Assembly (NCBI RefSeq): GCF_008520305.1
Contig: NZ_ML703255.1
Span: 1-40,407, forward strand
Direction: 5' to 3'
Length of the DNA: 40,407 nt
DNA from: Mesorhizobium sp. SARCC-RB16n
GTDB taxonomy: Bacteria; Pseudomonadota; Alphaproteobacteria; Rhizobiales; Rhizobiaceae
In this document: piece by piece, positions 12,568 through 36,332 of the stretch
Position numbering within the stretch: the stretch's first letter is position 1
Layout of the letters: the number at the start of each line of letters is the position of its first letter
Notes under the pieces: model-generated
The model's input: only the letters and a program-made list of their open reading frames with translations
The model's database searches: none
Told to the model about the DNA's origin: nothing
Made by a program: the position numbers and the translations under genes

Positions 12568-12933
12568 ATGAGGACTCCGAACGTCACCCATCGTGGCCCG
12601 CTCGTCGTCATCACGGCAGCGGTGCTGGCGTGCGCAATCGCCTTCTACTACTTCGCGGCCCCGCTGACTGGGGTAACCGGAACCTCCGGAGCCATGCTTG
12701 TGCTCATCGCCAGCTTGGCGCTTGCGCTGGATGGACTCCTGTTGCGCTTCAAAGGCAATGGTGCCGTCTTCATCCTGGCCTGGGTCTTGGGCCTTCTGGG
12801 AGCACTCGGCACCTTCACCGCCGCCGCCTTTCTCCACGCTTGGTGGCTGGTGGCGGCCGTTGCCGTTGTGCTGGCCGGGCTGCTGATCACGCTGGGTTTC
12901 CGACAGACCAAGACTCAGGATACGTCACAATGA
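12568..12933 (+). CDS. Four-helix membrane anchor subunit of a PQQ dehydrogenase (SldB-like)
   Basis: A 121-residue integral membrane protein with four hydrophobic helices (for example LVVITAAVLACAIAFYYFAA, MLVLIASLALALDGLLL, and one ending in FTAAAFLHAWWLV). Its size, helix count and position directly before a PQQ dehydrogenase match SldB, the small subunit of the split polyol dehydrogenase of acetic acid bacteria. SldB corresponds to the N-terminal membrane part of single-chain glucose dehydrogenase. Its likely job is to anchor the catalytic subunit and provide the ubiquinone site. The start at 12568 is preferred over 12562 because AGGA then has proper spacing. Its TGA overlaps the ATG of the next gene (ATGA). 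The assignment rests on architecture, not on clear sequence identity. Confidence 0.75.
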   Translation: MRTPNVTHRGPLVVITAAVLACAIAFYYFAAPLTGVTGTSGAMLVLIASLALALDGLLLRFKGNGAVFILAWVLGLLGALGTFTAAAFLHAWWLVAAVAVVLAGLLITLGFRQTKTQDTSQ

Positions 12934-15017
12934 GAACTGCTATCTTGCGCCCGGCCCTGGGCTTGATCGTGTTTCTGTCGCTGGCGTTTGGCCTTCATTC
13001 CGTATCTGCCCAAAATTACAAGAATTCACCCGAGTCACAGCCGGGCGGCATAGTTAAACAGCCGAACGAGGCGAGCGGGGGCACCAGCCCTTCGACCGGG
13101 GACGCAGGCTCGCCGAAGGAAGCGACAACAGCCCCGCTACCTGCACCCAAGCCAATCCCACTGATCCCGCCACAGCCGACCTGGAACAGCTTTCACGGCC
13201 AGCTCAATGGCCAGAAGTACTCGCCGCTCACTCAGATAACCGCGGCAAACGTCGGTTCGCTGCGTAAAGCATGGGAGTTGCACACCGGCGATATGTCGGA
13301 TGGTTCAGGCGAATTGCCCGCATCCGTCTGGTCCGCAACCCCCATTTTCGCCAATGATACGCTTTATATCGGGACCCCCTTCTACGGGGTGCTGGCGCTC
13401 GATCCCGGCACAGGGGCGATCAAGTGGAAGTTCGAGTCCAAAACCACCCTGAAAGCCTTGACACAGCCAGCCCTGAAGAACCGTGGCGTCGCTTACTGGG
13501 AGAGCAAGAAGCCCGTTGCGGGCGAGGGCTGTCAGAAGATCGTCTATCTCGGCACCATGGACGCGCACCTCTTCGCGCTGGACGCCGACACCGGACAGCT
13601 CTGCAAAAAATTCGGCTCGGGTGGGGTGCTCGATGTAAACCAATGGAACGACATCAACGCCAAGTACCCGCTATCGCTTTTGCAGCCTCCCACCGTGGCG
13701 GGAAACCATGTCATCATCGGCTGGGCCGGTAAGGATTGGGCCTATGCCGAGGCTCCTCCCGGCACGGTCTTCTCGCTGGATCCGCAGACGGGCGCGCGAC
13801 AGTGGACGTTTTCGTCGCTGCCGGCGCAGATCGCAAAACGTACCGGCACCGCCAATGTCTGGACGGCAATGTCCGTGGACGAAGGGCTCGGCCTTGTGTA
13901 CCTGCCCGTCTCCAGCCCATCGCCGAATTACTGGGGCGGCAACCGTGCCAGCCCGATACCGCTGGCGACGTCCACCACCGCACTGGATCTCGAAACTGGC
14001 AAGGTCGTCTGGTCGCGACAGTGGGTCCATCACGACATCTGGGATTACGACATCAACTCGGCGCCCACGCTTATGGACATCACGGTGGCAGGCAAACAAG
14101 TTCCTGCCCTGATGCAGGCGACGAAGATGGGCTTTCTGTTCGTGGTTGACCGGCGCACCGGAAAAGACGTCTGGCCGATCGATGAACGCCCTGTACCTGG
14201 CGGCGACGGCACCGTCCAGGGGGAGGTCTACGCTCCCACGCAACCGTTCCCGACCAAACCCGCACCGCTGCTGGACCAGTCCAAAAAGCCAGCAATCTGG
14301 CGAATAGCTGATGTCGTCGGGCTGGGCGAGTGCTCTCGGTTATGGGACAACCTCTCCTACCGTGGCATGTACAGTCCGCCAACGCACAAAGGCGACGGCG
14401 TGCTGGCTTACCCGGACTCGGCTGGCGGAGTGCAATGGGGTGGTGTCGGTTTCGATCCAAGCACCCAAACGGCGGTGGTCAACTTCTCGCATGTTGTCCA
14501 ATCCATCAAGCTCTTTCCGCGCGACGAATACCAGCGGCTCGCCGGCAATTCCGGCAATGAACAGGGCTACTATCCGCAAGAGGGCGCGCCGTACGGCATG
14601 TCGCTGCGCAACGCTCTCAACTGGCTCGGCATGCCCTGCTGGGCCCCGCCCTTCGGAGAAATCGCCGCCATCGATATGACCACCGGCGGCATCAAATGGC
14701 GCCGGCCGATGGGTGCATCGCAGAAGTGGGGCTTCTATATGCCAGAATCCCTTGGGTCCGTGACGATTGGTGGCCCCGCCGTGACGGCAGGTGGTTTGAT
14801 ATTCATCGGGGGTTCGATGGACGCCAAGGTGCGAGCCTATTCGCTCGCCAACGGACAGGAATTGTGGTCCGACATCGTCCAGGCGCCTGCGGTGGCCAAT
14901 CCTGCGGTGTACGAGTATCGCGGCCGCGAGTACGTGGTGTTCGTCGCTGGCGGAAACACCATTCTGAAAGACCAGGTCGGCGATCAGGTTGCCGCTTATG
15001 CCCTTCCCGGGCCCTAA
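12930..15017 (+). CDS. PQQ-dependent membrane-associated dehydrogenase, glucose/quinate/polyol family (SldA-like)
   Basis: A 695-residue quinoprotein. A signal or anchor helix (1-28) and a Pro/Ser-rich linker (31-82) precede an eight-bladed beta-propeller starting WNSFHGQLNGQKYSPLTQIT. The active-site pattern of membrane glucose dehydrogenases is present: HHDIWDYD with the catalytic Asp at about 372, and ATKMGFLFVVDRRTG with Lys at about 399. The 27-residue spacing equals Asp466 to Lys493 in E. coli Gcd. The end reads VGDQVAAYALPGP. Single-chain Gcd has five N-terminal helices; here these are replaced by the separate upstream gene, as in SldBA. It should oxidise a sugar or polyol in the periplasm and reduce ubiquinone, which the downstream cyo oxidase would reoxidise. 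The substrate is unknown. Confidence 0.9.
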   Translation: MRTAILRPALGLIVFLSLAFGLHSVSAQNYKNSPESQPGGIVKQPNEASGGTSPSTGDAGSPKEATTAPLPAPKPIPLIPPQPTWNSFHGQLNGQKYSPLTQITAANVGSLRKAWELHTGDMSDGSGELPASVWSATPIFANDTLYIGTPFYGVLALDPGTGAIKWKFESKTTLKALTQPALKNRGVAYWESKKPVAGEGCQKIVYLGTMDAHLFALDADTGQLCKKFGSGGVLDVNQWNDINAKYPLSLLQPPTVAGNHVIIGWAGKDWAYAEAPPGTVFSLDPQTGARQWTFSSLPAQIAKRTGTANVWTAMSVDEGLGLVYLPVSSPSPNYWGGNRASPIPLATSTTALDLETGKVVWSRQWVHHDIWDYDINSAPTLMDITVAGKQVPALMQATKMGFLFVVDRRTGKDVWPIDERPVPGGDGTVQGEVYAPTQPFPTKPAPLLDQSKKPAIWRIADVVGLGECSRLWDNLSYRGMYSPPTHKGDGVLAYPDSAGGVQWGGVGFDPSTQTAVVNFSHVVQSIKLFPRDEYQRLAGNSGNEQGYYPQEGAPYGMSLRNALNWLGMPCWAPPFGEIAAIDMTTGGIKWRRPMGASQKWGFYMPESLGSVTIGGPAVTAGGLIFIGGSMDAKVRAYSLANGQELWSDIVQAPAVANPAVYEYRGREYVVFVAGGNTILKDQVGDQVAAYALPGP

Positions 15018-15127: not shown

Positions 15128-16183
15128 ATGAGAATTGGGGACCGCCAAGGCGCAAACACGGCGTCGTGCATGCTGGGCAAGGGCAAAGTCGAAAGAGGTG
15201 CCTTGCAAAGATCCAATTACGCTGCGCCGGTCGTCGCCCGAGCCGCAGCCACCCTGTTCGCCGTTGCCGCCGTTCTGACCGGGTGTTCGGGAGGCGTGTT
15301 CGACCCGCAGGGACCAATCGCGGCCGGCAATACAAAGATCCTGCTCAATTCGCTGGCCGTGATGCTGGTCATCGTGATCCCCACATTGGTCGCGTTGCTC
15401 CTCATCGCCTGGAAATATCGAGCCACAAACAGTCAAGCCCGCTACGATCCCGAGTTTGTCTATTCCGGTCGCATAGAGCTGATCGTCTGGGGAATCCCGA
15501 CGCTGACGATCCTCTTCCTCGGCGGGCTCATCTACTACGGATCACAACGCCTAGATCCGCGGATGCCGATAATCTCGGATAAGCCGCAGCTGAATGTGCA
15601 AGTCGTGGCGCTCGACTGGAAGTGGCTCTTCATTTATCCCGACCAGCAAGTCGCCACCGTCAACAAGCTCGTCATCCCGGCTGGCGTGCCTGTACATTTC
15701 ACATTGACTTCGGCCAGCGTCATGAACGCGTTCTTCGTACCGCAGCTCGGCAGCATGATCTACGTCATGAATGGCATGCAGACGGACCTGCACCTGCAGG
15801 CTGATCATGCGGGTACCTACTATGGGCAATCGGCCCATTTCAGCGGCGACGGCTTTTCGGACATGCACTTCCAGGTGCACGCCATCCCGGCCCAGGAATT
15901 TGGCGCCTTCCTGTCCGGCTTGAAAGCAGGAACCGGCGTCTTGAACGCTGACGCCTACCTCAAGCTGGCGCAACAGGGCAGCGATGTTTCGGCGGCCACG
16001 TTTGGTCATGCACAATCAGGCCTGTTTGATGCCATAGTGCATCAGGCGCTGCCTCCCGGCCTCGGTCCAACCAGGAACAAATCCGTCAGTGAGCCGGGCA
16101 TCAGGCCCAAGGCGAACCCGTCCCCCACCGGCTCGGCGAACCCAGCGCCGCAGCATCGAGAGGAGGCGCACGATGCTCGGTAA
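15128..16183 (+). CDS. cyoA: Cytochrome bo3 ubiquinol oxidase subunit II
   Basis: Subunit II of a quinol-oxidising heme-copper oxidase. A lipoprotein-type signal ends in VLTGCSGG; two membrane helices follow ([20 protein letters not shown] and [20 protein letters not shown]), then a cupredoxin-like domain ([20 protein letters not shown]). The CuA ligands of cytochrome c oxidases are absent: the region reads [18 protein letters not shown], as in CyoA, so the electron donor is quinol. The C-terminal tail of about 60 residues is Pro-rich. The annotated ATG has only a weak ribosome-binding site; an in-frame TTG at 15203 preceded by AGAGG gives a more usual signal length. It overlaps cyoB by 11 bases. 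Confidence 0.93.
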
Positions 16184-18176
16184 GCTCGACTGGTCCGCCA
16201 TCCCGTTTGACCAGCCGATCCCGCTTGGAGCTGCATTGATCGTGTTTATTGCCGGGCTCGGTGTGCTGGGCTGGATCACGGTAAAGGGGTATTGGCCTTA
16301 TCTATGGCATGACTGGATAACTTCCGTCGATCACAAGCGCATCGGCGTCATGTACATCGTGCTTGCGATGCTGATGTTACTGCGCGGCTTCGTTGACGCA
16401 ATCATGATGCGTACCCAGCAGCTGCTTGCGATCCACGGACCGGGTTACCTGCCGCCCGAGCACTTCGATCAGATATTCTCGGCTCACGGGACCATCATGA
16501 TCTTCTTCGCCTCGATGCCGTTCATGATCGGCCTGATGAACTTCGTTGTGCCGCTGCAGTTGGGGATCCGTGATGTCGCGTTCCCCACGCTCAACTCGGT
16601 CAGTTTCTGGCTGACGGCGACCGGCGCCCTGCTGGTCAACATTTCCTTGGTGGTCGGGGAATTCGCGCGCACCGGCTGGCTACCCTATGCACCGCTTTCG
16701 GAACTTGCATATTCGCCCGGTGTCGGTGTGGACTACTATTTATGGGCGATCCAGATATCCGGCGTCGGAACGCTTCTGACCGGCGTGAACTTGGTAACCA
16801 CCATTTTGAAAATGCGTGCCCCTGGAATGGGCTATCTGCGCATGCCCATGTTCTGCTGGACATCGCTGGCCTCGAATCTCCTTATCGTGGCTGCCTTCCC
16901 GATCCTTACCGCAACGCTGGCAATGCTGACGCTCGACCGCTACCTTGGCTTTCACTTCTTCACCAATGAAGCCGGTGGGAACCAGATGATGTTCGTCAAC
17001 CTCATCTGGGCCTGGGGCCATCCAGAAGTCTACATCCTGGTACTTCCGGCCTTTGGAGTATTCTCCGAAATATTCTCCACGTTCTCGTCCAAGCCGCTGT
17101 TCGGCTACCGCTCCATGGTAGCAGCGACGATGTTCATCTGTCTCGTGTCTTTCATGGTGTGGCTGCACCATTTCTTCACGATGGGCGCAGGTGCAAATGT
17201 AAATACGGCCTTCGGCATAGCCACCTCGGTTATCGCTGTCGGAACAGGGGTGAAGATCTACAACTGGCTCTTCACCATGTATGGCGGCAGAGTTCGCTTC
17301 GAAACGCCAATGCTGTGGGCGCTCGGCTTCGTCACCACTTTCACCATTGGGGGAATGACCGGCGTCCTGCTTGCCGTCCCGCCGGCCGACTACGTTCTTC
17401 ACAATTCGCTGTTCCTGGTAGCGCATTTCCACAACGTGATCATCTCAGGTGTTCTCTTCGGCGCTTTCGCCGGCTTTACGTTCTGGTTCCCAAAGGCATT
17501 CGGCTTTCGCCTGTACGAGGGCTGGGGCAAGGCGGCGTTCTGGTTAACGCTCCTCGGCTTCATCCTCGTCTTCGCACCGCTTTACGCGGTTGGTCTGGAG
17601 GGCATGACGCGCCGGCTGCAGCACATTGAAGTGGATGCCTGGGTGCCCTGGATCGTCATCGCGGCGAGCGGTATTGCGGTGATGCTGGTGGGTGCGGCGT
17701 GCCAGATTGCGCAGCTCTTCCTCTCAATCAGGGACCGTGACCAGCTTCGCGACGACACTGGTGACCCCTGGGACGGGCGCTCGCTGGAGTGGTCGACACC
17801 GTCGCCACCGCCTCCGTTCAATTTTGCGCACCAGCCCCATGTCGAAAACGAAGAGCCCTATTGGAGCATGAAACAACGCGTCATCGACGGCCAAGACCCA
17901 AGGACGGACAGGCATTACGAGCCGATCGACATGCCCAAGAACACCCCAACGGGATTCGTGACGGCCTTCTTCGCGACGGTCATCGGGTTTGCACTCATCT
18001 GGCACATCTGGTGGCTGTCAATTCTCGGGTTCCTCGGCGCCTACGCCACCTTCGTGGTGTTCGCTTGGCGCGACCAGGCCGAAATCGTGATCCCCGCCGA
18101 GGAGGTAGAGCGGATCGATTGCGACCGCACGGCCGCGCAAATGGCCTGGCTGCGGCGCGGGGAGCAAGTAAGATGA
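16173..18176 (+). CDS. cyoB: Cytochrome bo3 ubiquinol oxidase subunit I
   Basis: The 667-residue catalytic subunit, with about fifteen membrane helices, that reduces O2 at a heme-CuB centre while pumping protons. Key motifs are all present: [16 protein letters not shown] near the N-terminus, the heme-ligand helix [16 protein letters not shown], the CuB/cross-linked Tyr motif [17 protein letters not shown], the CuB histidines [11 protein letters not shown], and the heme ligands [11 protein letters not shown]. The sequence following [19 protein letters not shown] is CyoB-like. The start has AGGAGG 7 bases upstream and lies within the end of cyoA. Its stop overlaps the start of cyoC. Confidence 0.96.
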
Positions 18177-18880
18177 ATGACCACTTCGACACGATGCCCA
18201 GCGACATCACCGCTGGAAGTGCCAGACGCGATCCCTACATGCTGGGCCGTTCGAGCGGGCTGCGAGACGGTCGCTCACGACAAGAGGGGGCCACCGGACG
18301 CGGCGAGGGCGGTCCCGCGCCGAAATTTGTAACCGTCACCTACGGATTTTGGATCTTTCTCCTGTCCGACATCATTATGTTCTCGGCATTTTTCGCCTCA
18401 TACGCAGTGCTCGTCAATGCAACCGATAGCGGGCCGACAGGCAAGCAACTGTTCGACCTCACGCGCGTTGCCGTTCAGACCGGGCTTTTGTTGACCTCGA
18501 CTTTCACCGCAGGCATGGCCTCACTTGCGATCGAAAGACGTTCGATGCCCGGCGCACAGGCGTGGCTGGTCGTCACGGGCGTGCTTGGAGCATTGTTCCT
18601 GCTCCTCGAGGGGCAGGAATTTATTACGATGATCGGGGAGAATGCCGGTCCCACACGAAGCGCGTTCCTGTCGGCCTTCTTCGGATTGGTCGGCTGCCAT
18701 GGCGTCCATGTGGGGCTTGGCGTCCTGTGGCTTGGAACCATGATGGCCCAGCTGTGGGTGAAGGGCTTTCGCGCCGACATCTTGCGCAGACTTCACTGCT
18801 TCGGCCTCTTCTGGCATGCCCTAGACATCATTTGGGTCGCGATTTTCAGCCTGGTTTACTTGCTGGGAGCATCGCAGTGA
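18173..18880 (+). CDS. cyoC: Cytochrome bo3 ubiquinol oxidase subunit III
   Basis: A 235-residue membrane protein of the heme-copper oxidase subunit III family with five helices. Marks include the opening [50 protein letters not shown] and the C-terminal [18 protein letters not shown]. The first 50 residues are a hydrophilic Gly/Arg-rich extension, longer than in E. coli CyoC. ATGA overlaps join it to cyoB, and GTGA overlaps join it to cyoD, so translation is coupled. Confidence 0.95.
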
Positions 18881-19341
18881 CAGATAAGACCGCACCATCC
18901 GACGCGTCCACCGACACCCGCGATGCCGCCCCCGGCGAGGAGACGATCGCGCGCAACGAGCCCGCGGCTGGAGTGCCGGGATATCTGCTCGGCTACGGCC
19001 TCGCGATCCTGTTGACGGCGGGATCCTTCGTCGCCGCCAGGACGGGGCTGATCTATCAGCCCGCCGTGATTTCCGCGCTGGTCGTGCTGGCCCTCGCACA
19101 GATTGGCGTGCACCTGGTTTTCTTTTTGCATCTGACGACCGGACCAGACAACACAAACAACATTCTGGCCCTCGCCTTCGGAGTGCTGATCGTCGCCCTG
19201 ATCGTGCTCGGTTCCGTTTGGATAATGGATCATCTCGACCAGAACATGCCGCCGATGAAGCCGCAACAGCTTGCCCTGCTGGCCCGTTGTCCCGCCGAAC
19301 GCCTTCCGGGTGGCGTCGGCGACGGACCGTGCGGGGCCTGA
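18877..19341 (+). CDS. cyoD: Cytochrome bo3 ubiquinol oxidase subunit IV
   Basis: A 154-residue small subunit with three membrane helices (LLGYGLAILLTAGSFVAA, VISALVVLALAQIGVHLVFF, ILALAFGVLIVALIVLGSVW) and the CyoD-type HLVFFLHL. It starts at a GTG that overlaps the cyoC stop. The C-terminal 25 residues after MDHLDQNMPP are atypical for the family and may result from a shifted end or a local change. It completes the bo3 operon begun by the quinoprotein genes. Confidence 0.9.
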   Translation: MTDKTAPSDASTDTRDAAPGEETIARNEPAAGVPGYLLGYGLAILLTAGSFVAARTGLIYQPAVISALVVLALAQIGVHLVFFLHLTTGPDNTNNILALAFGVLIVALIVLGSVWIMDHLDQNMPPMKPQQLALLARCPAERLPGGVGDGPCGA

Positions 19342-19453
19342 TGAGCGCAAGGCAGCGCCGCTGAGGCTGAAACGCTATGGGCATGCGGCGGACCCAAGGA
19401 CGACAGGACGCCTCGACAGTTCGACCCGAAGAATTGCGATGAAGGAGGAACTG

Positions 19454-20188
19454 ATGATCCCCGAATGGTTGCGTTGGGTGGCCCTGCTGTCGTTGCTAGC
19501 CGGCATCCTGTCTTCGATCTGGATTGCATTCGACGAATTCCGAAGTCCGCAGAAGATGTGGATCATGAACCTCGTTTGGCCCGTGTGTGCTCTCTTCGGA
19601 TACAGCTTCGTTCTTTTCCTTTATCTGCACTCCGGCCGGCCAAGTTCGAAGGGCACGGTCGAGCGGCCAAGCGGAGGCGCAAGGAATTCAGGCTCTCACA
19701 AGCCAGTTCTTTCGCCGACCGCGATCGCAAAGGCGGCGTTACATTGCGGAGCCGGCTGCACCGTGGGCGATGTCATTGCCGAGACGCTGGCACTTGCGTT
19801 CCCAACTGTTCTTTTGTGGCTGGGCTGGAAAACCCTGTTCGGCGAGAGAACGATTTCGGTCTGGATGCTGGACTACATCTTTGCCTTCGTGCTGGGCATT
19901 GCTTTCCAATATTTCACCATCAAGCCGATGCGACAGCTGTCCGCGAAACAAGGGTTGATACAAGCGCTCAAGGCCGATGCTCTGTCGCTGACGGCATGGC
20001 AGGTCGGTATGTATGGCCTGATGGGAGTCGGGCAGTTCTTGATTTTCAAACCGGTCTTCGGGACGAAACTGGAAGCCAACACGCCTGAGTTCTGGTTCTT
20101 GATGCAACTGGCCATGCTAGCCGGCTTTGCAACCGGTTATCCCGTAAACTGGTGGCTCCTCAGAAAAGGCATAAAGGAACTGATGTAG
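19454..20188 (+). CDS. DUF4396 membrane protein
   Basis: A 244-residue integral membrane protein of the DUF4396 family, with about seven helices. The diagnostic segment HCGAGCTVGDVIAE, with its Cys-Gly-Ala-Gly-Cys pair, lies after a hydrophilic loop and is followed by FPTVLLWLGWKTLFGE and a helix-rich C-terminus (TGYPVNWWLLRKGIKELM). DUF4396 proteins often sit near copper or heme-copper oxidase genes; the paired Cys/His suggests metal handling, which is inference. MIPEWLRW at 19454 is taken as the start because AAGGAGG lies just before it; an ATG 15 bases upstream is less likely. It lies 112 bases after cyoD. Confidence 0.88.
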   Translation: MIPEWLRWVALLSLLAGILSSIWIAFDEFRSPQKMWIMNLVWPVCALFGYSFVLFLYLHSGRPSSKGTVERPSGGARNSGSHKPVLSPTAIAKAALHCGAGCTVGDVIAETLALAFPTVLLWLGWKTLFGERTISVWMLDYIFAFVLGIAFQYFTIKPMRQLSAKQGLIQALKADALSLTAWQVGMYGLMGVGQFLIFKPVFGTKLEANTPEFWFLMQLAMLAGFATGYPVNWWLLRKGIKELM

Positions 20189-23200: not shown

Positions 23201-23313
23201 ATCGTCGATCTGGAGGGCTCGTCAGCAGATCTTGTGCGCGATGCCCGCATTGCCCGGGATGACGGATCGGCTTCACTGGGTGGACCGGCTGGAGCGCAGG
23301 CAGGCGGAGCGGG

Positions 23314-26964: not shown

Positions 26965-26965
26965 A

Positions 26966-27547: not shown

Positions 27548-28406
27548 GGCTTGCCTCCCTGATTCCGCTCTTGCTTATCCAAAGGCCGGCAAGCAGCAAG
27601 GCGGCCCCGCCATAGATCAGGCCGGCGGGAATCCACATCACCAGGCCGGCGAGCTGCTGGTCCTCGATCGGAGTCAGACCCCAGAGTGCCGCGCCAGCGG
27701 CATTCTGGGGGTACCAGAGTTTGGGCGAGAACAGCAGCAGCACACCAAGGAGACCGGTGTGCAGCGACGTTAAGAAGAGATGCATGACCGCGCTGCCATA
27801 AGCCCGCTGGCGGCCGGCACGCGGCAGAATCACCCACCAGAATAGCAAGGCCGTGCCGAGGAAGCTCGCATGCTGGGCATAGTGCAGCACGCCCTGCTGA
27901 AGTGCTGCCTCGAAGAGGACGGGGACGTGCCAGATCCAGATCGCGATACCGTGGATGACGGTTGCGTTGAGGGGGCGGCTGACAACGGACCAGACCATCC
28001 GGAAAATGTTGCCGTGCGTGAGCCTTCCCGTCCCTTGGCGGAGCGCGGCCGGCAATGCCCATATCAAGGCTGCGCCGGGGCAGGCGGCGACAAGGAGCGG
28101 CGCAGCGACCGCCATCAGCAGTTCATGCTCGATCATGTGAGCGGCAAACACCCGTTCGCCAAGCGCATGGACTGGGCTGACCAGCGCTCCGGTCAGCACG
28201 CCCCAGCCGGCGGCGAACAACAGCGCCTGTCGCGTCCGCTCGGGGCGGCCCCTGCTGCTGCGGCGCCACAGCCGGCGTGCTCCGACCGCATAGGTGAGCG
28301 CGATTGCCGCCAAAGGGACCGTGATGGGAAACGCAAGCGTCCATCCCGCTTCGGGCGCGCCGGCGCCATAGCAGACCGAAGTTGAGAAGAAGGCCTCGAA
28401 GCTCAT
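27528..28406 (-). CDS. ctaG: Cytochrome c oxidase assembly protein, CtaG (caa3 type)
   Basis: A 292-residue polytopic membrane protein of the CtaG/caa3 assembly family, thought to help insert copper or assemble the caa3 oxidase. Marks are VHALGERVFAAHMIEHELLM (conserved His in AHMIEHELLM), IHGIAIWIWHVPVLFEAALQ, VLHYAQHASFLGTALLFWW and the C-terminal PIEDQQLAGLVMWIPAGLIY. The start at 28406 shares ATGA with the preceding gene's stop. Position between oxidase subunits and cytochrome c supports the role. Confidence 0.93.
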   Translation of the reverse strand: MSFEAFFSTSVCYGAGAPEAGWTLAFPITVPLAAIALTYAVGARRLWRRSSRGRPERTRQALLFAAGWGVLTGALVSPVHALGERVFAAHMIEHELLMAVAAPLLVAACPGAALIWALPAALRQGTGRLTHGNIFRMVWSVVSRPLNATVIHGIAIWIWHVPVLFEAALQQGVLHYAQHASFLGTALLFWWVILPRAGRQRAYGSAVMHLFLTSLHTGLLGVLLLFSPKLWYPQNAAGAALWGLTPIEDQQLAGLVMWIPAGLIYGGAALLLAGLWISKSGIREASHALRPG

Positions 28407-28744
28407 CGCAGGCACTCGTCGAGAATGAGCGCGGCGCTGCCTTGCATGACGATGACGAGGGCAAAAAGCAAAGCCGCAAGAATGCCGAGATCGGCGACGA
28501 ATTGCTCCGTGGTGCGCGCGCGCTCCGCCTTGAAAGCCGCGCCCCCCTGCCGCCTTGCCCGCCAAGAAAGCATACCGCCGAGAAGCGAAAGCAAGGCCAG
28601 CAGCAATGTGATCGGAAGCACGACTGGAACCTGGCGATTGCACTGCCAAGGAACAAGCGCGTAATTCAGCTGCGTGGAGATCGCCCAAGCCAAAGGCCCC
28701 GATAGAAGGCCACCCCAGGACGTTCCCAATCGGAGCGCGCGCAT
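28403..28744 (-). CDS. Small membrane protein in the caa3 operon
   Basis: A 113-residue protein with three to four hydrophobic segments (SGPLAWAISTQLNYALVPW, VVLPITLLLALLSLLGGML, LGILAALLFALVIVMQGSAA) and a charged middle (ARRQGGAAFKAERARTTEQF). No named family is recognised, but similar-sized membrane proteins occur at this position, between subunit III and ctaG, in other caa3 clusters. It overlaps both neighbours by start/stop codons, so it is almost certainly translated. Confidence 0.8.
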   Translation of the reverse strand: MRALRLGTSWGGLLSGPLAWAISTQLNYALVPWQCNRQVPVVLPITLLLALLSLLGGMLSWRARRQGGAAFKAERARTTEQFVADLGILAALLFALVIVMQGSAALILDECLR

Positions 28745-29349
28745 CAGCCCAGCCTCGGTACCCAGTAGATGAGCAGGTAGATCGGGATCCAGGTGAGCAC
28801 CACGAAATCCCAGTAGAAGACGTTATCGCCCACGTCGCCGAAACGCCGGCCGCTATATCCATGGCGTGTGAACATCAGCACAGTCAGCACGATCGTGTCG
28901 CCCACATCGGTGATCAGATGGGTGGTGTGCAGCCCAAGCAGCACCCAAAGCAGCGAGCCGTATGCGTTTGTGTCCCAATAGATATGCAACGCCGGGAACT
29001 CGAACCAGCGCACCACGAGCGGAGCGAGGCCGAACAACGACATCACAATCATGCCGATCCGCACCGGTACGATTGCGCAATGCTCGGCGTAGCGATTGAG
29101 GATGTGGTTTGGCACAAGGCTGGCGACCAGCAACAAGGTGACGACCGTTCCTGGCCAATGGTTTGGTTCCGGGGCGCTCAGACGCCAGTTGGGCCATGAC
29201 ATCGCAAGGTAGAGATAGGCGCCGGCGGCCAGCGCAAAGCCCGTCCCTTCTAACGCCATGAAGCCGAGCGTACCCCACCAGGTCGGGCTGCGAGGACCAC
29301 GGCCAAACGTAGGGAGGGCGGAAAGGTCGGTGACGGGCCGCTGGTTCAT
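28744..29349 (-). CDS. Cytochrome c oxidase subunit III (caa3 type)
   Basis: A 201-residue membrane protein of the heme-copper oxidase subunit III family. Helices include WGTLGFMALEGTGFALAAGA, VVTLLLVASLVPNHILNRYA and SLLWVLLGLHTTHLITDVGD; the HTTHLITDV helix and the ending VFYWDFVVLTWIPIYLLIYW are typical. The start shares ATGA with the stop of subunit I. Confidence 0.9.
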   Translation of the reverse strand: MNQRPVTDLSALPTFGRGPRSPTWWGTLGFMALEGTGFALAAGAYLYLAMSWPNWRLSAPEPNHWPGTVVTLLLVASLVPNHILNRYAEHCAIVPVRIGMIVMSLFGLAPLVVRWFEFPALHIYWDTNAYGSLLWVLLGLHTTHLITDVGDTIVLTVLMFTRHGYSGRRFGDVGDNVFYWDFVVLTWIPIYLLIYWVPRLG

Positions 29350-31322
29350 TCCTCGTCCTCCGGATCGCCCTTGGGCCAGAACCAGCCGACCAGCGTGAGC
29401 GCGATCGGCACGGCGCCCCACACGATCGCCCACGGCGTGAAGATCGAGTAGAGGAAAGTGGCGCCCACGGCGATCGCCGCCAACAGTGGCCAGATCGATG
29501 GCGTCGCCGATTTCTCGCGGATGTCGGGATGGGCCTCGGCCACGGTCGAGATGAGCAACTCGCGGACATCGACGCGTAGGCCGGTAGCGACCGGAAGCGT
29601 CTCTCGTTCGGCCCACAGCGGCTCGACGTTCGTCACGATTGGAATGCGCGTGAAATTATAGCTCGGAGGCGGCGAGGACGTGGCCCATTCCAGGGTGCCC
29701 GCGTCCCAGGGATTGTCCCCGGCCGGTGCCCCTTTCAATGCGCCATGGATAAGGTTGAAGGTGAACAGCACGAAGCTCAGGAAGAACAGCATCGCGCCAG
29801 CGCTGATGAACAGGTTGATGTTGCCCCAGCCAAGCTCCGCCGAATAGGTGTAGACCCTGCGCGGCATGCCCCACAGACCGACAAGATGCATCGGGAAGAA
29901 GGCCGCGTTGAAGCCGATGAAGGCCAGCCCGAAATGCCAGCGTCCTAGACGTTCGCTCATCATGCGTCCGGTTATCTTGGGGAACCAGAAATAGGCCGCG
30001 CCCAGCAGCGGGAATACCGATCCGCCGATCAGCACGTAGTGGAAGTGGGCGACGACGAAATAGGTGTCGTGCACCTGGAGGTCGAGCGGCACAGAGGCGA
30101 GCATGACGCCGGTAAGCCCGCCGATGACGAAGATGAAGAAGAAGCCGAAGACGAACAGCAGCGGCGTGCGGATCACCGGTCTGCCATCCCACAAGGTCGC
30201 CAGCCAGCAGAAGATCTGCACGCCATTGGGGATGGCGATCAGCATGCTGGACGCCGTGAAGAAGCTCGCCCCGAGCTTCGGCAATCCCGTCGCAAACATA
30301 TGGTGCACCCAGAGGCCGAACGACAGGAAACCCACCGAGATCAGCGACAGGACCAGCCCGAGGTGGCCAAACGTTGGTCGCCGGGCAAAAGCAGGAATGA
30401 TCGAAGAGACCATGCCTGTCGCCGGCAGGAAGATGATGTAGACCTCGGGATGGCCAAAGAACCAGAACAGATGCTGGAACAGCAGGGCGTCGCCGCCCTC
30501 GGCTGGATTGAAAATGTGGGTTCCGACAAGCCGGTCGAGGATGAGGAAGGTCGAGGTAATCATAACGGCCGGCATGGCGAAGACGACGACGAAGGAAGTG
30601 ACCAGCAGTGCCCATACATAAAGCGGTATCTTGTCCAGCGACATGCCGGGCGCACGTTGCTTGAACACGGTGACGATGGTGGCGACGGCCACCGCAAGCG
30701 ACGATACTTCAGTATAGGTGATCATTTGCGCCCAGACATCGGCGCGCTTGCCGGGGGAAAATTCCGGTCCGGATAGGGGCACATAGGCGAACCAGCCGAC
30801 ATCCGGCGCCATGTTGAGGAGGAATGAGATCCAGGCAAAGGCCCCGCCCGAGACGTAGATCCAGTAGCCGAATGCATTGAGTCGCGGGAATGCGATGTTG
30901 CGGGTGCCGACCATCAGCGGCACCAAATAGATTCCCGTTGCCTGCACGATGGGCACAGCGAACAGGAACATCATGGTGACGCCATGCATCGTGAACAGCT
31001 GGTTGTAGAGGTCCGGTCCGATCAGCCCGCGCTGCGGCCCCGAGAGTTGGACACGCATCGCGACAGCGTTCAGCCCACCAAGGCACAGAAAGATGAAGGC
31101 CGTGATCAGATAGCGCCTTGCGATGACCTTATGGTCGACGCTCGACAGGGCGCCGATGATGCCGGGCGGCGTGCGCCATGCCCGGGTGAGCCAGCGGTGG
31201 AGGCTGGCATCGTCCATGCCGGTATCGCGCGGTCCGTCAGGCTCGGGAGCCAGATCGCCTTTGCTGGCGGTCTCGCGTTTCGGCGGCAGGTCGCGTTCGC
31301 TGGTCAGATCCGCGCTGCTCAT
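29346..31322 (-). CDS. coxA: Cytochrome c oxidase subunit I (caa3 type)
   Basis: The 658-residue catalytic oxidase subunit. After a charged N-terminal tail come GALSSVDHKVIARRYLITAF, the heme-ligand helix FTMHGVTMMFLFAVPI, the CuB/Tyr motif WFFGHPEVYIIFLPATGM, the CuB His pair LWVHHMFATGLP, and VAHFHYVLIGGSVFPLLGAA with the low-spin and high-spin heme ligands. The Tyr of YVLIGG after HFH is as in cytochrome c oxidases; the CyoB of this window has Asn-Val-Ile there. The start is set by ATGA overlap with subunit II. It reduces O2 with electrons from cytochrome c. Confidence 0.96.
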   Translation of the reverse strand: MSSADLTSERDLPPKRETASKGDLAPEPDGPRDTGMDDASLHRWLTRAWRTPPGIIGALSSVDHKVIARRYLITAFIFLCLGGLNAVAMRVQLSGPQRGLIGPDLYNQLFTMHGVTMMFLFAVPIVQATGIYLVPLMVGTRNIAFPRLNAFGYWIYVSGGAFAWISFLLNMAPDVGWFAYVPLSGPEFSPGKRADVWAQMITYTEVSSLAVAVATIVTVFKQRAPGMSLDKIPLYVWALLVTSFVVVFAMPAVMITSTFLILDRLVGTHIFNPAEGGDALLFQHLFWFFGHPEVYIIFLPATGMVSSIIPAFARRPTFGHLGLVLSLISVGFLSFGLWVHHMFATGLPKLGASFFTASSMLIAIPNGVQIFCWLATLWDGRPVIRTPLLFVFGFFFIFVIGGLTGVMLASVPLDLQVHDTYFVVAHFHYVLIGGSVFPLLGAAYFWFPKITGRMMSERLGRWHFGLAFIGFNAAFFPMHLVGLWGMPRRVYTYSAELGWGNINLFISAGAMLFFLSFVLFTFNLIHGALKGAPAGDNPWDAGTLEWATSSPPPSYNFTRIPIVTNVEPLWAERETLPVATGLRVDVRELLISTVAEAHPDIREKSATPSIWPLLAAIAVGATFLYSIFTPWAIVWGAVPIALTLVGWFWPKGDPEDEE

Positions 31323-32329
31323 TTCAGACCCTCGAGATAGGCGACGATGGCGTTGAGTTCGTCGCCGTTGAGCTCCACCACAGGCATATGGGAACCGGGC
31401 TTCACGCCTTGCGGATCCGCTATCCAGGCGGCGAGATTGCCTCGGCTCATCGTCAAGGTGCCGGCGGCGAGCGTTCGCCGGCTGGCAATATGCGTCAGAT
31501 CCGGCGCGACGGTTCCTCCCGCTGGAGTGCCCCCGATCCTGTGGCACATCACGCAGGGGCGACTGAGGAACAGGTCCTCGCCAGCCTTGGCCTCGTCGCT
31601 CGCTGGAGGGCCAGCCGGCTGCAACTGGTCGTTCCACCAGGCGTCGAACTTTGCCCTCGGTTCGGCGATGATGAAGGTGCCCATGTTCGCATGCTGCGCA
31701 CCGCAGAACTCGGCGCACTGGCCCCGATATACGCCGGGCTTGTCGGCTTTGATGTCCAGCACATTAATATGGCCTGGGATGAGGTCGAGCTTGCCGGAAA
31801 GGCTCGGGACCCAGAAGGAATGGATCACGTCCGTCGAGGTCAGCAGAAGCCGTACCGGCTCCCCGGCGGGAATGTGGATCTCGTTCGCCGTGGTCAGGAT
31901 GCGGCTTGGCGTGGCGTCTTCGTAGCGCACCTCCCACCACCATTGGTGGCCGGTGACGCGAATGGTGAGCGCAGCGTCGGAGCCGATCGCCGCAAGCGTC
32001 CTGTTGGCGAAGAAGCTTAGCAAGGTCAGCCCGACCACGATCGCGGCGGTCAGCCCAACGGCGATCACAACAACGCGCAACTTTCGACGATCGGCACCAG
32101 AGTCGAGCGCGAGCGGCTCGGAACGTGCGAGAGGCCGCATCAACAGCGGCGTCGCCAGGGCGATCATAACCAGGACCCAGATCACCGCGCAAAGCGCGGT
32201 GAAAAACCAGATGAGCCATGCCAGTTCGCTGGCAGCGGGGCCTTTCGGGTCGAGCGCCGACTGCCATCCCGAGCATCCCTGCAAAAATACGCAGGCCGTG
32301 CCGAACCCGGTCCACGCAAGGCGCTTCAC
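31319..32329 (-). CDS. coxB: Cytochrome c oxidase subunit II with fused cytochrome c (caa3 type)
   Basis: A 336-residue subunit II. A lipoprotein-like signal (VFLQGCSG) and two helices (about 36-63 and 85-108) precede the cupredoxin domain. CuA ligands are complete: His170 in DVIHSFWVP, and Cys205, Glu207, Cys209, His213 and Met216 in GQCAEFCGAQHANMG. A C-terminal cytochrome c domain follows, with heme motif CVMCH at 259-263 and Met315 as likely axial ligand. This fusion defines caa3 oxidases, which take electrons directly from c-type cytochromes. ATGA overlap with the cytochrome gene upstream. Confidence 0.95.
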   Translation of the reverse strand: MKRLAWTGFGTACVFLQGCSGWQSALDPKGPAASELAWLIWFFTALCAVIWVLVMIALATPLLMRPLARSEPLALDSGADRRKLRVVVIAVGLTAAIVVGLTLLSFFANRTLAAIGSDAALTIRVTGHQWWWEVRYEDATPSRILTTANEIHIPAGEPVRLLLTSTDVIHSFWVPSLSGKLDLIPGHINVLDIKADKPGVYRGQCAEFCGAQHANMGTFIIAEPRAKFDAWWNDQLQPAGPPASDEAKAGEDLFLSRPCVMCHRIGGTPAGGTVAPDLTHIASRRTLAAGTLTMSRGNLAAWIADPQGVKPGSHMPVVELNGDELNAIVAYLEGLK

Positions 32330-32859
32330 GGTGACTTCCCCAAGGTGGCTGCATCCGGCATGCGGTTTTCCGAGGGATGCGGCATCATGTCGTCATTGCG
32401 TTGGGGCGCGGCGGATGAGGGTGCGTTGCCACTCAGCGAGCGGACGAAGGCGGCAAGCTCCCAAATCTGGTCATCGGGGATTTTGTCACGGAAGCTCGGC
32501 ATCCCTTTTGGCCGCCCGTCCCGGATCGTAGCGTGGATGTTCTCAATCGAACTGCCGTAAAGCCATTTCTGGTCCATCAAGGCCGGCCCCATGCCGCCGC
32601 CGCCATTGGCATGACAGCCCGAACAGTTGAACCAGCTGAAGAGGCGCTTGCCCTCGCTGAGGTGGAAAGCATTGGCCTCGAAGCTGGCTGCCTTGTTGTC
32701 GCTGGCGGAAGGCCGCTGTCCACCGGGTTCCAATGTCGTCACAGGCATCGGCTGCTCGCCCGATCCGAGCGAGGACTGCGGGCGTGTGTCCCGCTCCTCG
32801 CGCTGGCATGCCGCAAGAGTCAGCAGCGTAAACAGGAACATAGCGGCGCCGTGCCTCAT
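32326..32859 (-). CDS. c-type cytochrome lipoprotein, probable electron acceptor of the alcohol dehydrogenase
   Basis: A 177-residue single-heme cytochrome. The signal ends in a lipobox (LLTLAAC, Cys18), so it is probably lipid-anchored on the periplasmic side. Heme binding is CSGCH at 79-83 and the likely axial Met is in KGMPSF at 120. Position after the XoxF-like and XoxJ-like genes corresponds to XoxG/PedF, the dedicated cytochrome acceptor, though the sequence is a generic cytochrome c. ATGA overlaps on both sides couple it to the XoxJ-like gene and to coxB, physically linking dehydrogenase and oxidase. Confidence 0.9.
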   Translation of the reverse strand: MRHGAAMFLFTLLTLAACQREERDTRPQSSLGSGEQPMPVTTLEPGGQRPSASDNKAASFEANAFHLSEGKRLFSWFNCSGCHANGGGGMGPALMDQKWLYGSSIENIHATIRDGRPKGMPSFRDKIPDDQIWELAAFVRSLSGNAPSSAAPQRNDDMMPHPSENRMPDAATLGKSP

Positions 32860-33695
32860 CGCACTGGGCTCCCGGGGCCATCGAGGCGCGGCACGCCATA
32901 TTGTGACAGCAATGCGTCGATGTCTGCCTTGTGCCTGGCCAGCGCGCCGTTCACTTCGCCGCGCAGCGCATCGTCCTCGCGCCGAACGCCCATCGAGATG
33001 TCGTAGATCATGGGCAATTGCGGTCCGTCGATGCGAGGCGTGACCGGCGTGATGCGGAGCGGCACTTTCTGCTTGGCGGCGAAATAGCCGGCGAGCGGAC
33101 CCCAGACAACGGCAAGATCGATGTCGCCGGCGGCCACCGCTTCAACGATGCGCGCCGGAGGGTTGGGTGCGGAGTAGTCGCCATAGACGGGATAGCCGAC
33201 GAGATGCCCGACGATGCCGCGGCGGCCGAGCGCCTGGACGGGAGGCGAATTGACACCGTCGTCGCCGATGAGTTGCACGCCGATCCGCATATCGCGCAGC
33301 CGCGGATCGTTGAAGGACGCCACATCCGGGCCGTCCTGGCGGGTGACGAAAACATAGGAGGACCGATAATAGGGTGTGGTGGTGCGCAGCATTTCGAGAT
33401 TGGCCGGCGTGCCGGGCACGAGATCGCAAAGGCCGGCCTTCAGCGTGTTGCGCACGAAGCCGCGGCGCTGTGCCCACCAGGTGTAGGTCAGCTTGGCGCC
33501 GAGATCGGCGGCAACGATCTCGGCGATCTTGTTCTCGAAGCCTTGGCCAGCGGCGTTGGAAAATGGCATGTTGTTCGGGTCGGCGCAGACCCTCAGTTCA
33601 CGGGCATCGGCTCGCGCCGGCAAGAGCAGCAAGGCGAGCGCGGCCATGCCGAGCGCCAGGCGCGCGGCCCAGTGTTCAGGGCAGCCGGAACACAT
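32856..33695 (-). CDS. Quinoprotein-associated periplasmic binding protein (XoxJ/MoxJ-like)
   Basis: A 279-residue exported solute-binding-type protein: ARELRVCADPNNMPFSNAAG, GFENKIAEIVAADLGAKLTY, WWAQRRGFVRNTLKAGLCDL, VPGTPANLEMLRTTTPYYRS and a closing LLSQYGVPRLDGPG. These are the hallmarks of the MoxJ/XoxJ family, which accompanies PQQ alcohol dehydrogenases and is thought to help load or activate them rather than act in transport. GGGAGG lies about 9 bases before the ATG, which overlaps the end of the dehydrogenase gene by 20 bases. Confidence 0.92.
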   Translation of the reverse strand: MCSGCPEHWAARLALGMAALALLLLPARADARELRVCADPNNMPFSNAAGQGFENKIAEIVAADLGAKLTYTWWAQRRGFVRNTLKAGLCDLVPGTPANLEMLRTTTPYYRSSYVFVTRQDGPDVASFNDPRLRDMRIGVQLIGDDGVNSPPVQALGRRGIVGHLVGYPVYGDYSAPNPPARIVEAVAAGDIDLAVVWGPLAGYFAAKQKVPLRITPVTPRIDGPQLPMIYDISMGVRREDDALRGEVNGALARHKADIDALLSQYGVPRLDGPGSPVR

Positions 33696-35553
33696 AAAGC
33701 GTGCCTCCCGCCGTTGTGGCGTCCTTTAAATCCTTCATCGCGTTGACGAAACCGAGGGCGGCGGTGGCGTCGCGCGGATCGAGATCGCCGGATACGATGG
33801 CGCCGGCCCAGCCGCCGACACCCGACAGGATCGCCACATATTGATGTCCGTCGGGACCTCGATATGTGATGGGCTGGCCGATGATGCCGGACCCCGTCTT
33901 GAACTGCCAAAGCAGATCCCCAGTCTTCGCGCTGACCGCCTTGAACCAACCTTCCATTGTCCCGTAGAAGACGACGTCCCCGGCGGTCACGACCGTGCCG
34001 CTCCACACCGGGAAGTTCTCCTTGAGACTCCAGGCGGGTTTCTCCGCCGCGATGTCCCAGGCGGTGAAGGCGCCCCGGTTCCCCCCGGGCCCGGGGATCA
34101 TGCGCACGTTCATGCCGACATAAGGCGTGCCGGCGATGTAGTTCACCTCGACGCCTTCTTCGTCCATGCACAAATTATTATGCGGGATGTAGAGCAGCCT
34201 GGTCTTCGGCGAGAACGCAGAAGGCTGCCAATCCTTGAGTCCCGACGCGGTCGGGCAGATGTCGCGGACGACCTTGCCTGTCCCGGTCTTCTTGTCCGGG
34301 TTTTCGATCAGACGACCGCTCTTGAGATCGACACCCTTGCTGGAATTGACGGACCCGAAAGGCTTCGCCGACAAAACTTCGCCGGTGGTCCGGTCGAGGA
34401 TGTAGAGATAGCCGTTGCGCTCGGGCCGGACCAGCACCTTGCGCGGCTTGCCCTGCCAGTTCATGTCGAGCAGGATCTGCTCGTTTATCCCGTCATAGTC
34501 GTGGAGGTCGTGCGGGCTCCATTGGTAGAACCATTTCGCCGCTCCGGTATCGGGATCGCGCGCGAAGATGCCTGACGTCCATTTGTTGTCGCCCGGCCGC
34601 AGATCGGGGTTCCACGGTCCAGGATTGCCGGTGCCGTGGAAGATCAGGTTGAGATCCGGATCGTAGGAAATCCAGCCCCACATGTTGCCGCCACCGATCC
34701 TCCAGGCCTCCGGGGGCCATGTCGTGACGCCAAGATCCTTGCCCTTGTCCATGTCGTAATGCGGCCTGAAGTCCGGGCCGATAAGCACGTCCTTGTCAGG
34801 CCCGGTGCCGTAGGCCGTCCAGACGACGTGACCGTCTGCGGCGTCGAGCGCCTTGACCCAGCCACGAACACCCATCTCGCCGCCTGAATTGCCGACCAGC
34901 ACTTTGCCTTTCACCACCAAGGGCGCCATGGTGATGGTCTCGCCGATGTTGATGTTGCCGATATGGGCGTTCCAGATCGGCTGGCCGGTGTTCGCGTCGA
35001 GCGCGATGGTGTGCCCGTCCAGTGTGTTGAAGAAGATGCGTCCGCCTGCGAAAGCCGCGCCGCGATTGACGACATCGCAACAGGCAACCCCTTGCGCCGC
35101 AGGCTCAGGGTTGGGTTCGAACTTCCATTTCATCGGCGCACCCGGCTTGGTGAGATCGAGCGCGTAGACGATGTTGGGGAAGGGGGTCACGATGTACATC
35201 ATGCCGCCGACGACCAGCGGTGCCGCTTCCTGGCCCTTATTTATCCCGGTTGAGAAGGTGAAGGCCACCTGCAGGTTCTTGACGTTGCCTTCGTTAATTT
35301 CCGTGAGCTCACTGTAACGGGTCGATGCGTAGTTCTTGGCCGGCATCGTCCATTGCCCGTCGTCGCGCGGAGCGGCGGAAGCAGGCGGCGAAATCGCCGA
35401 CTCTGGCGGAGCTTCCGAAGCAGCCGTCAGCAAGGGAGTGCAAACCAACAGCAACGCCGCAGAGAAGCTCTCAAGACGTTTTCGCAAGGCCGCCGAGCGG
35501 TTGGTGCGTACCGCGTCGACGCAAGGTACTACGGACTGCGCTGTTTGCTTCAT
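33676..35553 (-). CDS. PQQ-dependent alcohol dehydrogenase, lanthanide type (XoxF-like)
   Basis: A 625-residue periplasmic quinoprotein. After a signal region (hydrophobic core about 31-46) the beta-propeller shows the vicinal disulfide CC at 158-159, GGGNMWGWISYDPDLNLIFH (PQQ Trp region), GTGNPGPWNPD with the metal-binding Asn at 310, and HDLHDYDGINEQILLD with the catalytic Asp352 and a second Asp at 354. An Asp two residues after the catalytic one is the mark of lanthanide-dependent enzymes (XoxF, ExaF, PedH); calcium enzymes have Ala or Ser there. It should oxidise a primary alcohol, perhaps methanol or ethanol, and pass electrons to cytochrome c. The substrate cannot be read from sequence. 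The start overlaps the previous stop as ATGA. Confidence 0.92.
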   Translation of the reverse strand: MKQTAQSVVPCVDAVRTNRSAALRKRLESFSAALLLVCTPLLTAASEAPPESAISPPASAAPRDDGQWTMPAKNYASTRYSELTEINEGNVKNLQVAFTFSTGINKGQEAAPLVVGGMMYIVTPFPNIVYALDLTKPGAPMKWKFEPNPEPAAQGVACCDVVNRGAAFAGGRIFFNTLDGHTIALDANTGQPIWNAHIGNINIGETITMAPLVVKGKVLVGNSGGEMGVRGWVKALDAADGHVVWTAYGTGPDKDVLIGPDFRPHYDMDKGKDLGVTTWPPEAWRIGGGNMWGWISYDPDLNLIFHGTGNPGPWNPDLRPGDNKWTSGIFARDPDTGAAKWFYQWSPHDLHDYDGINEQILLDMNWQGKPRKVLVRPERNGYLYILDRTTGEVLSAKPFGSVNSSKGVDLKSGRLIENPDKKTGTGKVVRDICPTASGLKDWQPSAFSPKTRLLYIPHNNLCMDEEGVEVNYIAGTPYVGMNVRMIPGPGGNRGAFTAWDIAAEKPAWSLKENFPVWSGTVVTAGDVVFYGTMEGWFKAVSAKTGDLLWQFKTGSGIIGQPITYRGPDGHQYVAILSGVGGWAGAIVSGDLDPRDATAALGFVNAMKDLKDATTAGGTLYVFRLP

Positions 35554-36332
35554 TTTGGCGTCGAACCTCCGACGCCGGAACCGAGTTCGGCCGCGACGTC
35601 GGCCTCGGTGCCCGCGCATAGCGGGTGCCCCCAGCCAGAGGCGCTTTTCCCACCGGGATCGAGATCATAGATGATGGCATCCTTGCGGTTGGGATTGACG
35701 CCCGCCGGGACCTTGTCCAGGCCGAGGGCCGCGCGAACACGCCAGGCGACATTGTGGTCGGCACAGGAGGAATCGCCACTGACGCCAAGCGCGCCGACGA
35801 TCGTCTTGCCGTCGTAAAGAGCCAGGCCCCCGCCAAACACGACGACGCCGCCGATCGGCTTTCCGATCAGCGGATCGTCGGCGCTGCCGAAAGCCTTGGC
35901 ATCCCCGGCATAGGCTGTCGCCTGATTAACGGGGTTGGTGGCCTGCAGCCCGAACAGCGGCCCACCAGGTTGCACGCCGGCGTAAAGGTTCGCCGTTGAG
36001 AGAGCCATGCTCGCCAGGCTGAGCCCATTAGCCGTATTCGCCTTCTCGGCCGCGATGAGCCGGCTGCCGGGCCATTGTGCATCGACGGTGGGCCCACTGA
36101 AGGCGACGGCGCAGACCGTCCCGTCGCGGGCGACGACGGCCGCCCATTCATTGGTCTCGAGGCCACCATTGGCCGGGCCACCGCTGGCCTTGACATTGGC
36201 CTTCAAGGCGGCGAGCAGCTTGTCGTGATCGGCAGGGCACGGTGCCTGGGCTTGCGCAGCATTTTGTGCCAGCCCAACAACGGTCAGGATCAATAGGCAC
36301 AGCGCTGGTAACGTAAACTGGCGACGGTCCAT
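35550..36332 (-). CDS. Exported GlcG/HbpS-family protein
   Basis: A 260-residue secreted protein, first gene of the operon. The signal peptide (LPALCLLILTVVGLAQNAAQ) precedes a GlcG/HbpS domain: NEWAAVVARDGTVCAVAFSG, SRLIAAEKANTANGLSLASM, GGVVVFGGGLALYDGKTIVG and ALGVSGDSSCADHNVAWRVR. HbpS-type proteins bind heme, and relatives are common beside PQQ dehydrogenases, but their role there is not settled. Four Cys residues in the exported part could form disulfides. GAGGAG sits close to the ATG at 36332. The stop shares ATGA with the dehydrogenase start. Confidence 0.88.
   Translation of the reverse strand: MDRRQFTLPALCLLILTVVGLAQNAAQAQAPCPADHDKLLAALKANVKASGGPANGGLETNEWAAVVARDGTVCAVAFSGPTVDAQWPGSRLIAAEKANTANGLSLASMALSTANLYAGVQPGGPLFGLQATNPVNQATAYAGDAKAFGSADDPLIGKPIGGVVVFGGGLALYDGKTIVGALGVSGDSSCADHNVAWRVRAALGLDKVPAGVNPNRKDAIIYDLDPGGKSASGWGHPLCAGTEADVAAELGSGVGGSTPK

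Follow-up and report, generated by a model that had tools for sequence, protein, structure and literature searches.

We analyzed a stretch of 40,407 nucleotides from Mesorhizobium sp. SARCC-RB16n (contig NZ_ML703255.1; hereafter the window), in which two dehydrogenases dependent on pyrroloquinoline quinone (PQQ) lie beside two terminal oxidases. The plus strand carries genes for a split membrane PQQ dehydrogenase resembling SldB/SldA, then cyoABCD (15170-19341), a DUF4396 protein gene, a Na+/H+ antiporter gene and the ABC genes of a PQQ-alcohol system (23314-26964). Ten genes run on the minus strand from 36332 to 26966 and encode a heme-binding protein, XoxF, XoxJ, a cytochrome c, CoxB, CoxA, Cox3, a 113-aa membrane protein, CtaG and a second cytochrome c. 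An earlier note on this DNA had read the region as a portable pair of respiratory chains in which each dehydrogenase has its own matching oxidase. Our results make it quite likely that the locus is a composite, with a xoxF-caa3 operon of known type (core at about 23.3-36.3 kb) standing beside an SldBA-bo3 block of different history.

The minus-strand row is led by a gene for an HbpS-like (DUF336) heme-binding protein (35550-36332; PF03928), annotated as a heme-binding protein in the loci L081 and L082. It is followed by xoxF (33676-35553), which encodes a PQQ alcohol dehydrogenase with a D-Y-D lanthanide motif (TIGR03075, 646 bits with a cut-off of 480), and by xoxJ for a MoxJ-like periplasmic binding protein (32856-33695; TIGR03871, 307.1 bits). 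The next gene encodes a lipoprotein-like c-type cytochrome with a CSGCH motif (32326-32859; PF13442, PF00034), the proposed carrier from XoxF to the oxidase. Subunit II is encoded by coxB (31319-32329; TIGR02866 above cut-off, PF00116, PF00034) and carries the CuA motif CAEFCGAQH as well as the heme c motif CVMCH; a subunit II with a CuA site and a fused cytochrome c identifies the oxidase as caa3. Subunit I, encoded by coxA (29346-31322; TIGR02891 (CtaD_CoxA), 696.4 bits, above cut-off), has a C-terminal extension like that of a COX4 fusion, with two extra hydrophobic stretches at 606-645 as judged from hydropathy only. The gene for subunit III, coxC (28744-29349), gave a weak match to PF00510 (E=7.9e-4), and its product is 79-86% identical to annotated Mesorhizobium cox3. 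A 113-aa two-helix membrane protein (28403-28744), matched in place and size in L081, separates it from ctaG of the Caa3_CtaG type (27528-28406; PF09678, E=1e-51). The row ends with the second c-type cytochrome (26966-27547; PF00034, E=1.5e-7), and a cytochrome c is found at the equivalent place in L081 and L082. In the translation of this last gene, the N-terminal membrane segment is present twice in tandem as near-identical copies. With the start codons assigned in this analysis, each of the ten genes overlaps the next, so that they likely form one operon. The proposal that the XoxF-like dehydrogenase operon continues into a complete caa3 oxidase was therefore borne out, with the correction that the operon extends past ctaG to the second cytochrome c.

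The motifs HDYDG, GGE and GNP of the window XoxF align with those of the structures 4mae (the top match, 658.7 bits) and 6oc5. We take the extra aspartate of the DxD motif, together with the Glu and Asn, to be metal ligands. Of thirteen XoxF relatives submitted to the motif comparison, 12 yielded an alignment row and 11 of these rows span the motif; DxD is kept in all 11. In a 16-row tree, the window protein falls within a 13-row group (100/100 support) of cox-linked proteins with L211 at its base. The 6oc5 protein groups with that of S. meliloti pSymB, while 4mae branches outside, and both stand apart from the 13-row group; we assume the two structures to represent XoxF5 and XoxF2, respectively.

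The linkage of xoxF to cox genes is widespread. All 18 plasmid records whose XoxF is at least 60% identical to that of the window (H90-H106, H109) have cox genes close to xoxF, a count that includes near-identical plasmids. For 15 of these records the linkage was read from positions, with a gap to coxA below 3 kb (in H109 across the origin of the circular record), and for H99, H102 and H103 from their loci. Cox genes are likewise nearby in H107 (XoxF 57.9% identical), and the same linkage was observed in seven further genomes (L168-L170, L239-L241, L254). No cox genes were found within 9 kb of the H108 xoxF (56.1% identity; L211) or within 4 kb of the xoxF of S. meliloti pSymB (50.6% identity). 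Gene order varies, with the cox genes opposed to xoxF in Methylocella and ahead of it in Bradyrhizobium. Six caa3 loci in which xoxF was not detected (L173-L178) also have, ahead of coxB, a relative of the cytochrome c whose gene lies between xoxJ and coxB in the window; this cytochrome therefore belongs to the oxidase cluster no less than to the dehydrogenase cluster. It stands where XoxG would be expected, but its presence in those six loci suggests that the oxidase may have brought its own electron carrier.

Two further observations concern xoxF itself. In L209 (S. meliloti ABS7 pSymA), xoxF, xoxJ, coxB and coxA each match in two pieces and are absent from the gene table, which is incomplete, while the rest of the cluster is conserved; these four genes are perhaps decaying. 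A phage origin of xoxF was rejected, as the seven phage records that matched were all below 60% identity (26% in the best shown) and none covered 80% of the query.

The plus-strand dehydrogenase is encoded by two genes, a small one for a membrane subunit and a larger one for the PQQ subunit. The SldB-like subunit (12562-12933, 123 aa) has four hydrophobic stretches; it gave no Pfam match, and its best NCBIfam match is at chance level (E=0.54). Its stop codon is overlapped by the start of the gene for the SldA-like PQQ dehydrogenase (12930-15017, 695 aa; PF01011, E=6.5e-183), which has a hydrophobic N-terminus and an HHDxWD stretch. Compared with the model of the fused membrane PQQ dehydrogenase, TIGR03074, this protein scored 527.6 bits, below the cut-off of 832.65, and matched model positions 153-783 only. 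The name SldBA is our assumption from the architecture. Downstream on the same strand lie cyoA for subunit II (15170-16183, with a possible alternative upstream ATG at 15128; TIGR01433, 277.6 bits with a cut-off of 266.2), cyoB for subunit I (16173-18176; TIGR02843, 1039.4 bits, cut-off 1020.35), cyoC for subunit III (18173-18880) and, with a GTG start, cyoD for subunit IV (18877-19341; TIGR02847, 99.3 bits, cut-off 81.45). CyoC scored 211.1 bits with TIGR02842, just under the cut-off of 223.75, but from its place and gene overlap there is little doubt about its assignment. CyoA lacks the CuA cysteines and the heme c motif in a motif scan, and together with the scores of CyoA and CyoB above the model cut-offs this identifies a cytochrome bo3 quinol oxidase; HPEVY, HH and HFH stretches are present in the subunit I proteins of both oxidases. 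A split membrane PQQ dehydrogenase followed by cyoABCD, as described by the earlier note, is thus confirmed.

To look for conservation of this pairing, we examined 80 SldA loci (best segments 66-80% identical; flanks up to 10 kb; 71 of the loci at least 21 kb long). An SldB-like small gene was detected beside SldA in 43 of them, but none contained detectable cyo genes, and none contained xox or cox genes at 35% identity or more. We also searched three overlapping genome sets with one genome per species, namely the family of G002 (Zhengella; 297 genomes), its order (397) and its phylum (398). In the family set, SldA was found at E<=1e-150 in 25 genomes (26 places, including that of G002, the genome of L080 in the 80-locus set), CyoB at E<=1e-200 in 142 genomes, and both in 15. 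None of the 26 places showed cyo genes in the flanks read, which extend at most about 9 kb to either side and are in some cases cut by contig ends. Among the places listed, SldA and CyoB share a contig in G137, G032 and G145, at distances of about 35, 58 and 720 kb, respectively; second CyoB copies in G007 and G032 were checked via the SldA flanks only, and weak CyoB matches are not all among the matches listed. Nine of the 12 genomes with a related caa3 operon have SldA matches (E<=1e-80), all at 36-39% identity and therefore of the general Gcd kind, and in none of the 12 did such a match exceed 39%. Joint conservation of sld-cyo and xoxF-caa3 within 30 kb was not encountered in the sets searched.

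With no cyo at any of the 80 SldA loci or of the 26 places in the family set, we reject sld-cyo as a conserved operon, and the co-conservation on which the earlier note had staked its proposal beforehand was not found, nor was a closer SldA relative in the genomes with related caa3. Its claim of an own oxidase for each dehydrogenase is supported for xoxF-caa3, a conserved operon with the cofactor motifs in place, and gains no support from conservation for the other pair. The sld-cyo half, functionally plausible, looks mostly like a local arrangement and not a conserved unit.

Comparison with related plasmids separates the region into blocks. The window from 23307 to 36251 matches the plasmid of Mesorhizobium B1-1-8 in two abutting stretches, while the stretch 15276-19258 alone matches the cyo operon of M. 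ciceri and, in two pieces, that of G572; neither block extends to SldBA. In the three closest cyo operons examined, which lie on M. ciceri plasmids (three of the five M. ciceri-type operons at 85%), a metallo-hydrolase gene stands upstream in place of SldBA. Because its blocks are conserved separately, we regard the region as a composite, and the entire 24 kb as a mobile unit was rejected, since relatives share only the separate blocks. At the DNA level, 23.7-36.3 kb of the window is 83.1% identical to plasmid pB1-1-8, 27.5-36.3 kb is about 82% identical to five further Mesorhizobium plasmids, and 555-1811 shares 94.7% identity with a Mesorhizobium plasmid; these matches point to Mesorhizobium as the kin of the window. 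A Pfam scan of 44 translated stretches of the window (137 open reading frames were listed) revealed no integrase, and the stretch 155-394 resembles a Tn3 transposase gene. The idea of a portable paired layout is accordingly not supported, although the xoxF-caa3 operon does occur on plasmids elsewhere. G+C content ranges over 58-62% up to 22 kb and over 62.5-65% from there to 36 kb. This step from about 60% to about 64% (22000-36500) marks the xoxF-caa3 block.

Three other explanations of the locus were weighed. SldBA and cyo may have become a genuine operon only recently in this lineage, in which a co-transcribed bo3 would handle the quinol produced by SldBA; although we do not favor it, this deserves serious consideration. 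The two units lie on the same strand with a gap of 110-152 nt, and no T-tailed terminator was found between sldA and cyoA in a pattern scan. The scans yielded one and three promoter-like sites (shuffles 2.7 and 1.6) and 12 and 17 terminator-like sites (shuffles 8.2, sd 2.8, and 8.2, sd 2.3), and serve solely to show that no such site lies between the two genes. The SLDH of Gluconobacter feeds quinol oxidases, and extra expression of bo3 raised product formation, according to passages of PMC4869267. On the other hand, the sequence just beyond the sldA stop contains a hairpin, although its folding does not exceed that of shuffled versions (z -0.77), and no second instance of the pairing came up in the sets searched.

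A possible but rather unlikely alternative is that cyo serves as an accessory oxidase and now and then ends up near caa3 on plasmids or islands, with SldBA as a passer-by. The survey that bears on it covers 27 cyo loci (CyoB 66-86% identical), which are the best matches of several searches and hence a non-random sample, with short flanks in L181, L185, L259 and L260. Xox-linked caa3 genes adjoin cyo in one of them (G419), and two contain caa3 without xoxF: in Rhizobium AB2/73 (L207) and 11515TR (L208), a caa3 cluster of similar gene order lies a few kb from cyoABCD. A molybdopterin oxidoreductase gene heads the caa3 row in L207, and caa3 units seem, from such gene orders, to be combined with differing dehydrogenases. 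M. ciceri, moreover, keeps the cyo block without SldBA. One further locus (G572) has a membrane PQQ dehydrogenase, but the remaining 23 contain neither a PQQ dehydrogenase, xoxF nor caa3 within the flanks covered, and the short, same-direction spacing of SldA ahead of cyoA would permit co-transcription; both points count against this alternative.

Looser neighborhoods of quinoproteins and oxidases do occur in relatives. In G572, an 806-aa Gcd-like gene (L253, 7965-10385) lies 77 bp from cyoA in divergent orientation, and cyo is flanked on its far side by an antiporter gene; xoxF-caa3 and the PQQ ABC genes are on the same contig, about 47 kb separating CoxB from CyoB. A 799-aa Gcd-like gene of G564 (L254, 15428-17827) follows coxBAC-ctaG-HbpS-xoxF-xoxJ-cytC, and in G419 cyo and xoxF-caa3 are divergent neighbors. 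On the M. ciceri R30 plasmid, 22 kb separate xoxF from cyoB, but in four related plasmids the distance is about 110-210 kb. Such neighborhoods are a minority among the loci examined. Pairings related to those of the window therefore exist in other arrangements, while the exact sld-cyo pairing was not found elsewhere in the sets searched. It is conceivable, but in our view doubtful, that rhizobia repeatedly and independently assemble quinoprotein-oxidase cassettes, with a membrane PQQ dehydrogenase by cyo near XoxF by caa3, and that the window, G572, G419, G564 and M. ciceri R30 are separate outcomes of selection for periplasmic oxidation bypassing the core respiratory chain. That two purpose-built, portable quinoprotein-oxidase chains are kept as one functional unit is highly improbable: both pairs are intact in the window and looser versions exist in G572, M. 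ciceri R30 and G419, but no cyo was detected at any SldA locus in either survey, just one of the 27 cyo loci has a membrane PQQ dehydrogenase and one has xoxF, no SldA relative above 39% accompanies the 12 related caa3 operons, xoxF and cyoB lie far apart in the four other M. ciceri-type plasmids, and no integrase appeared among the stretches scanned.

Several points weigh against the composite with a probably lanthanide-dependent XoxF as we present it. A membrane PQQ dehydrogenase stands beside cyo in L253 and beside xoxF-caa3 in L254, and cyo stands beside xoxF-caa3 in G419 (L239); because such pairings are seen in L253, L254 and L239, the neighborhood of sld-cyo and xoxF-caa3 is maybe more than an accident. 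Judged from its motifs and gene context, XoxF is probably lanthanide-dependent and a putative member of clade 3; the tree, with 4mae and 6oc5 as its reference structures, shows that it stands apart from both. Passages of PMC9291206 report that xoxF3 transcription in Methylocella silvestris showed no significant response to lanthanides and that the protein was barely expressed; according to passages of PMC12482762 (2025), cerium raised XoxF3 protein in Methylosinus. As of 2024, XoxF3-based systems had had no experimental study, according to passages of PMC10875860.

Because the xoxF-caa3 operon is conserved and its products show the expected cofactor motifs, this half is most naturally read as a dedicated chain linked through cytochrome c. 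In the periplasm, XoxF would oxidise a short alcohol, be it methanol or another one, and the adjacent lipoprotein-like cytochrome c would carry the electrons to CoxB, where they would enter heme c and CuA and continue through caa3 to oxygen, a route that would run without the bc1 complex. The SldBA-like dehydrogenase, acting on a putative polyol or sugar, would pass its electrons to ubiquinone, and the resulting quinol would be oxidised by bo3; by analogy with Gluconobacter (passages of PMC4869267), this order of electron transfer is plausible. The xoxF-caa3 operon provides a clean, often plasmid-borne case for asking whether an XoxF3-type enzyme has its own oxidase. If quinoprotein-oxidase pairings recur beyond chance, rhizobia would add whole respiratory chains as modules.

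The remaining genes of the plus-strand row encode a DUF4396 membrane protein (19439-20188; PF14342) and a CPA1-type Na+/H+ antiporter (20230-21450; PF00999, with TIGR00831 below cut-off), followed by the PQQ-alcohol ABC set: a substrate-binding protein (23314-24489; TIGR03863), a further gene of the set (24477-25439; TIGR03866), an ATPase (25415-26161; TIGR03864) and a PedC-type permease (26158-26964; TIGR03861). No tRNA genes were detected in the window by ARAGORN. Two HWE-type histidine kinases with PAS domains adjoin each other at 3578-7102 on the minus strand. Lanmodulin was rejected for the EF-hand protein at 7172-7756 (plus strand), which scored 19.8 bits with NF053806 (cut-off 135) and has calcium-type loops without the lanmodulin proline (compared with passages of PMC10875860).

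No paper on a membrane PQQ dehydrogenase together with cyoABCD turned up in the literature collection searched. The earlier note knew of no description of the paired layout, but its xoxF-caa3 half is a conserved operon of a type already in print, as passages of PMC4013037 and PMC10875860 show. The former describe the type a-II COX operon, in which COX1 is fused to COX4 and a PQQ methanol dehydrogenase is often present, and which occurs in Rhizobium, Sinorhizobium and Mesorhizobium. The window likewise has an aa3-type oxidase operon with a PQQ dehydrogenase and, by hydropathy only, a COX4-like tail on CoxA, whereas these passages mention no SldBA or cyo neighbor. The XoxF3 clusters in passages of PMC10875860 share with the window XoxJ, cytochromes, CoxI-III, CtaG, a small protein (110-130 aa in those clusters) between CoxIII and CtaG, and a YncE-type beta-propeller. 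They are mainly from Acidobacteria and Gemmatimonadetes and occur with NRAMP transporters, whereas in the window the operon starts with a DUF336 gene and is convergent with the PQQ ABC genes. SldAB and bo3 of Gluconobacter, in turn, resemble the other half in the path from a membrane PQQ dehydrogenase through ubiquinone to a quinol oxidase, but the locus numbers of sldAB (GOX0854-0855) and cyo (GOX1911-1914) in passages of PMC4869267 are distant, while the window pair is adjacent. The families of the PQQ alcohol oxidation ABC genes, TIGR03861, TIGR03863, TIGR03864 and TIGR03866, are all matched above cut-off in the window, and these genes adjoin the XoxF-caa3 operon there as they do in Mesorhizobium B1-1-8 and G572.

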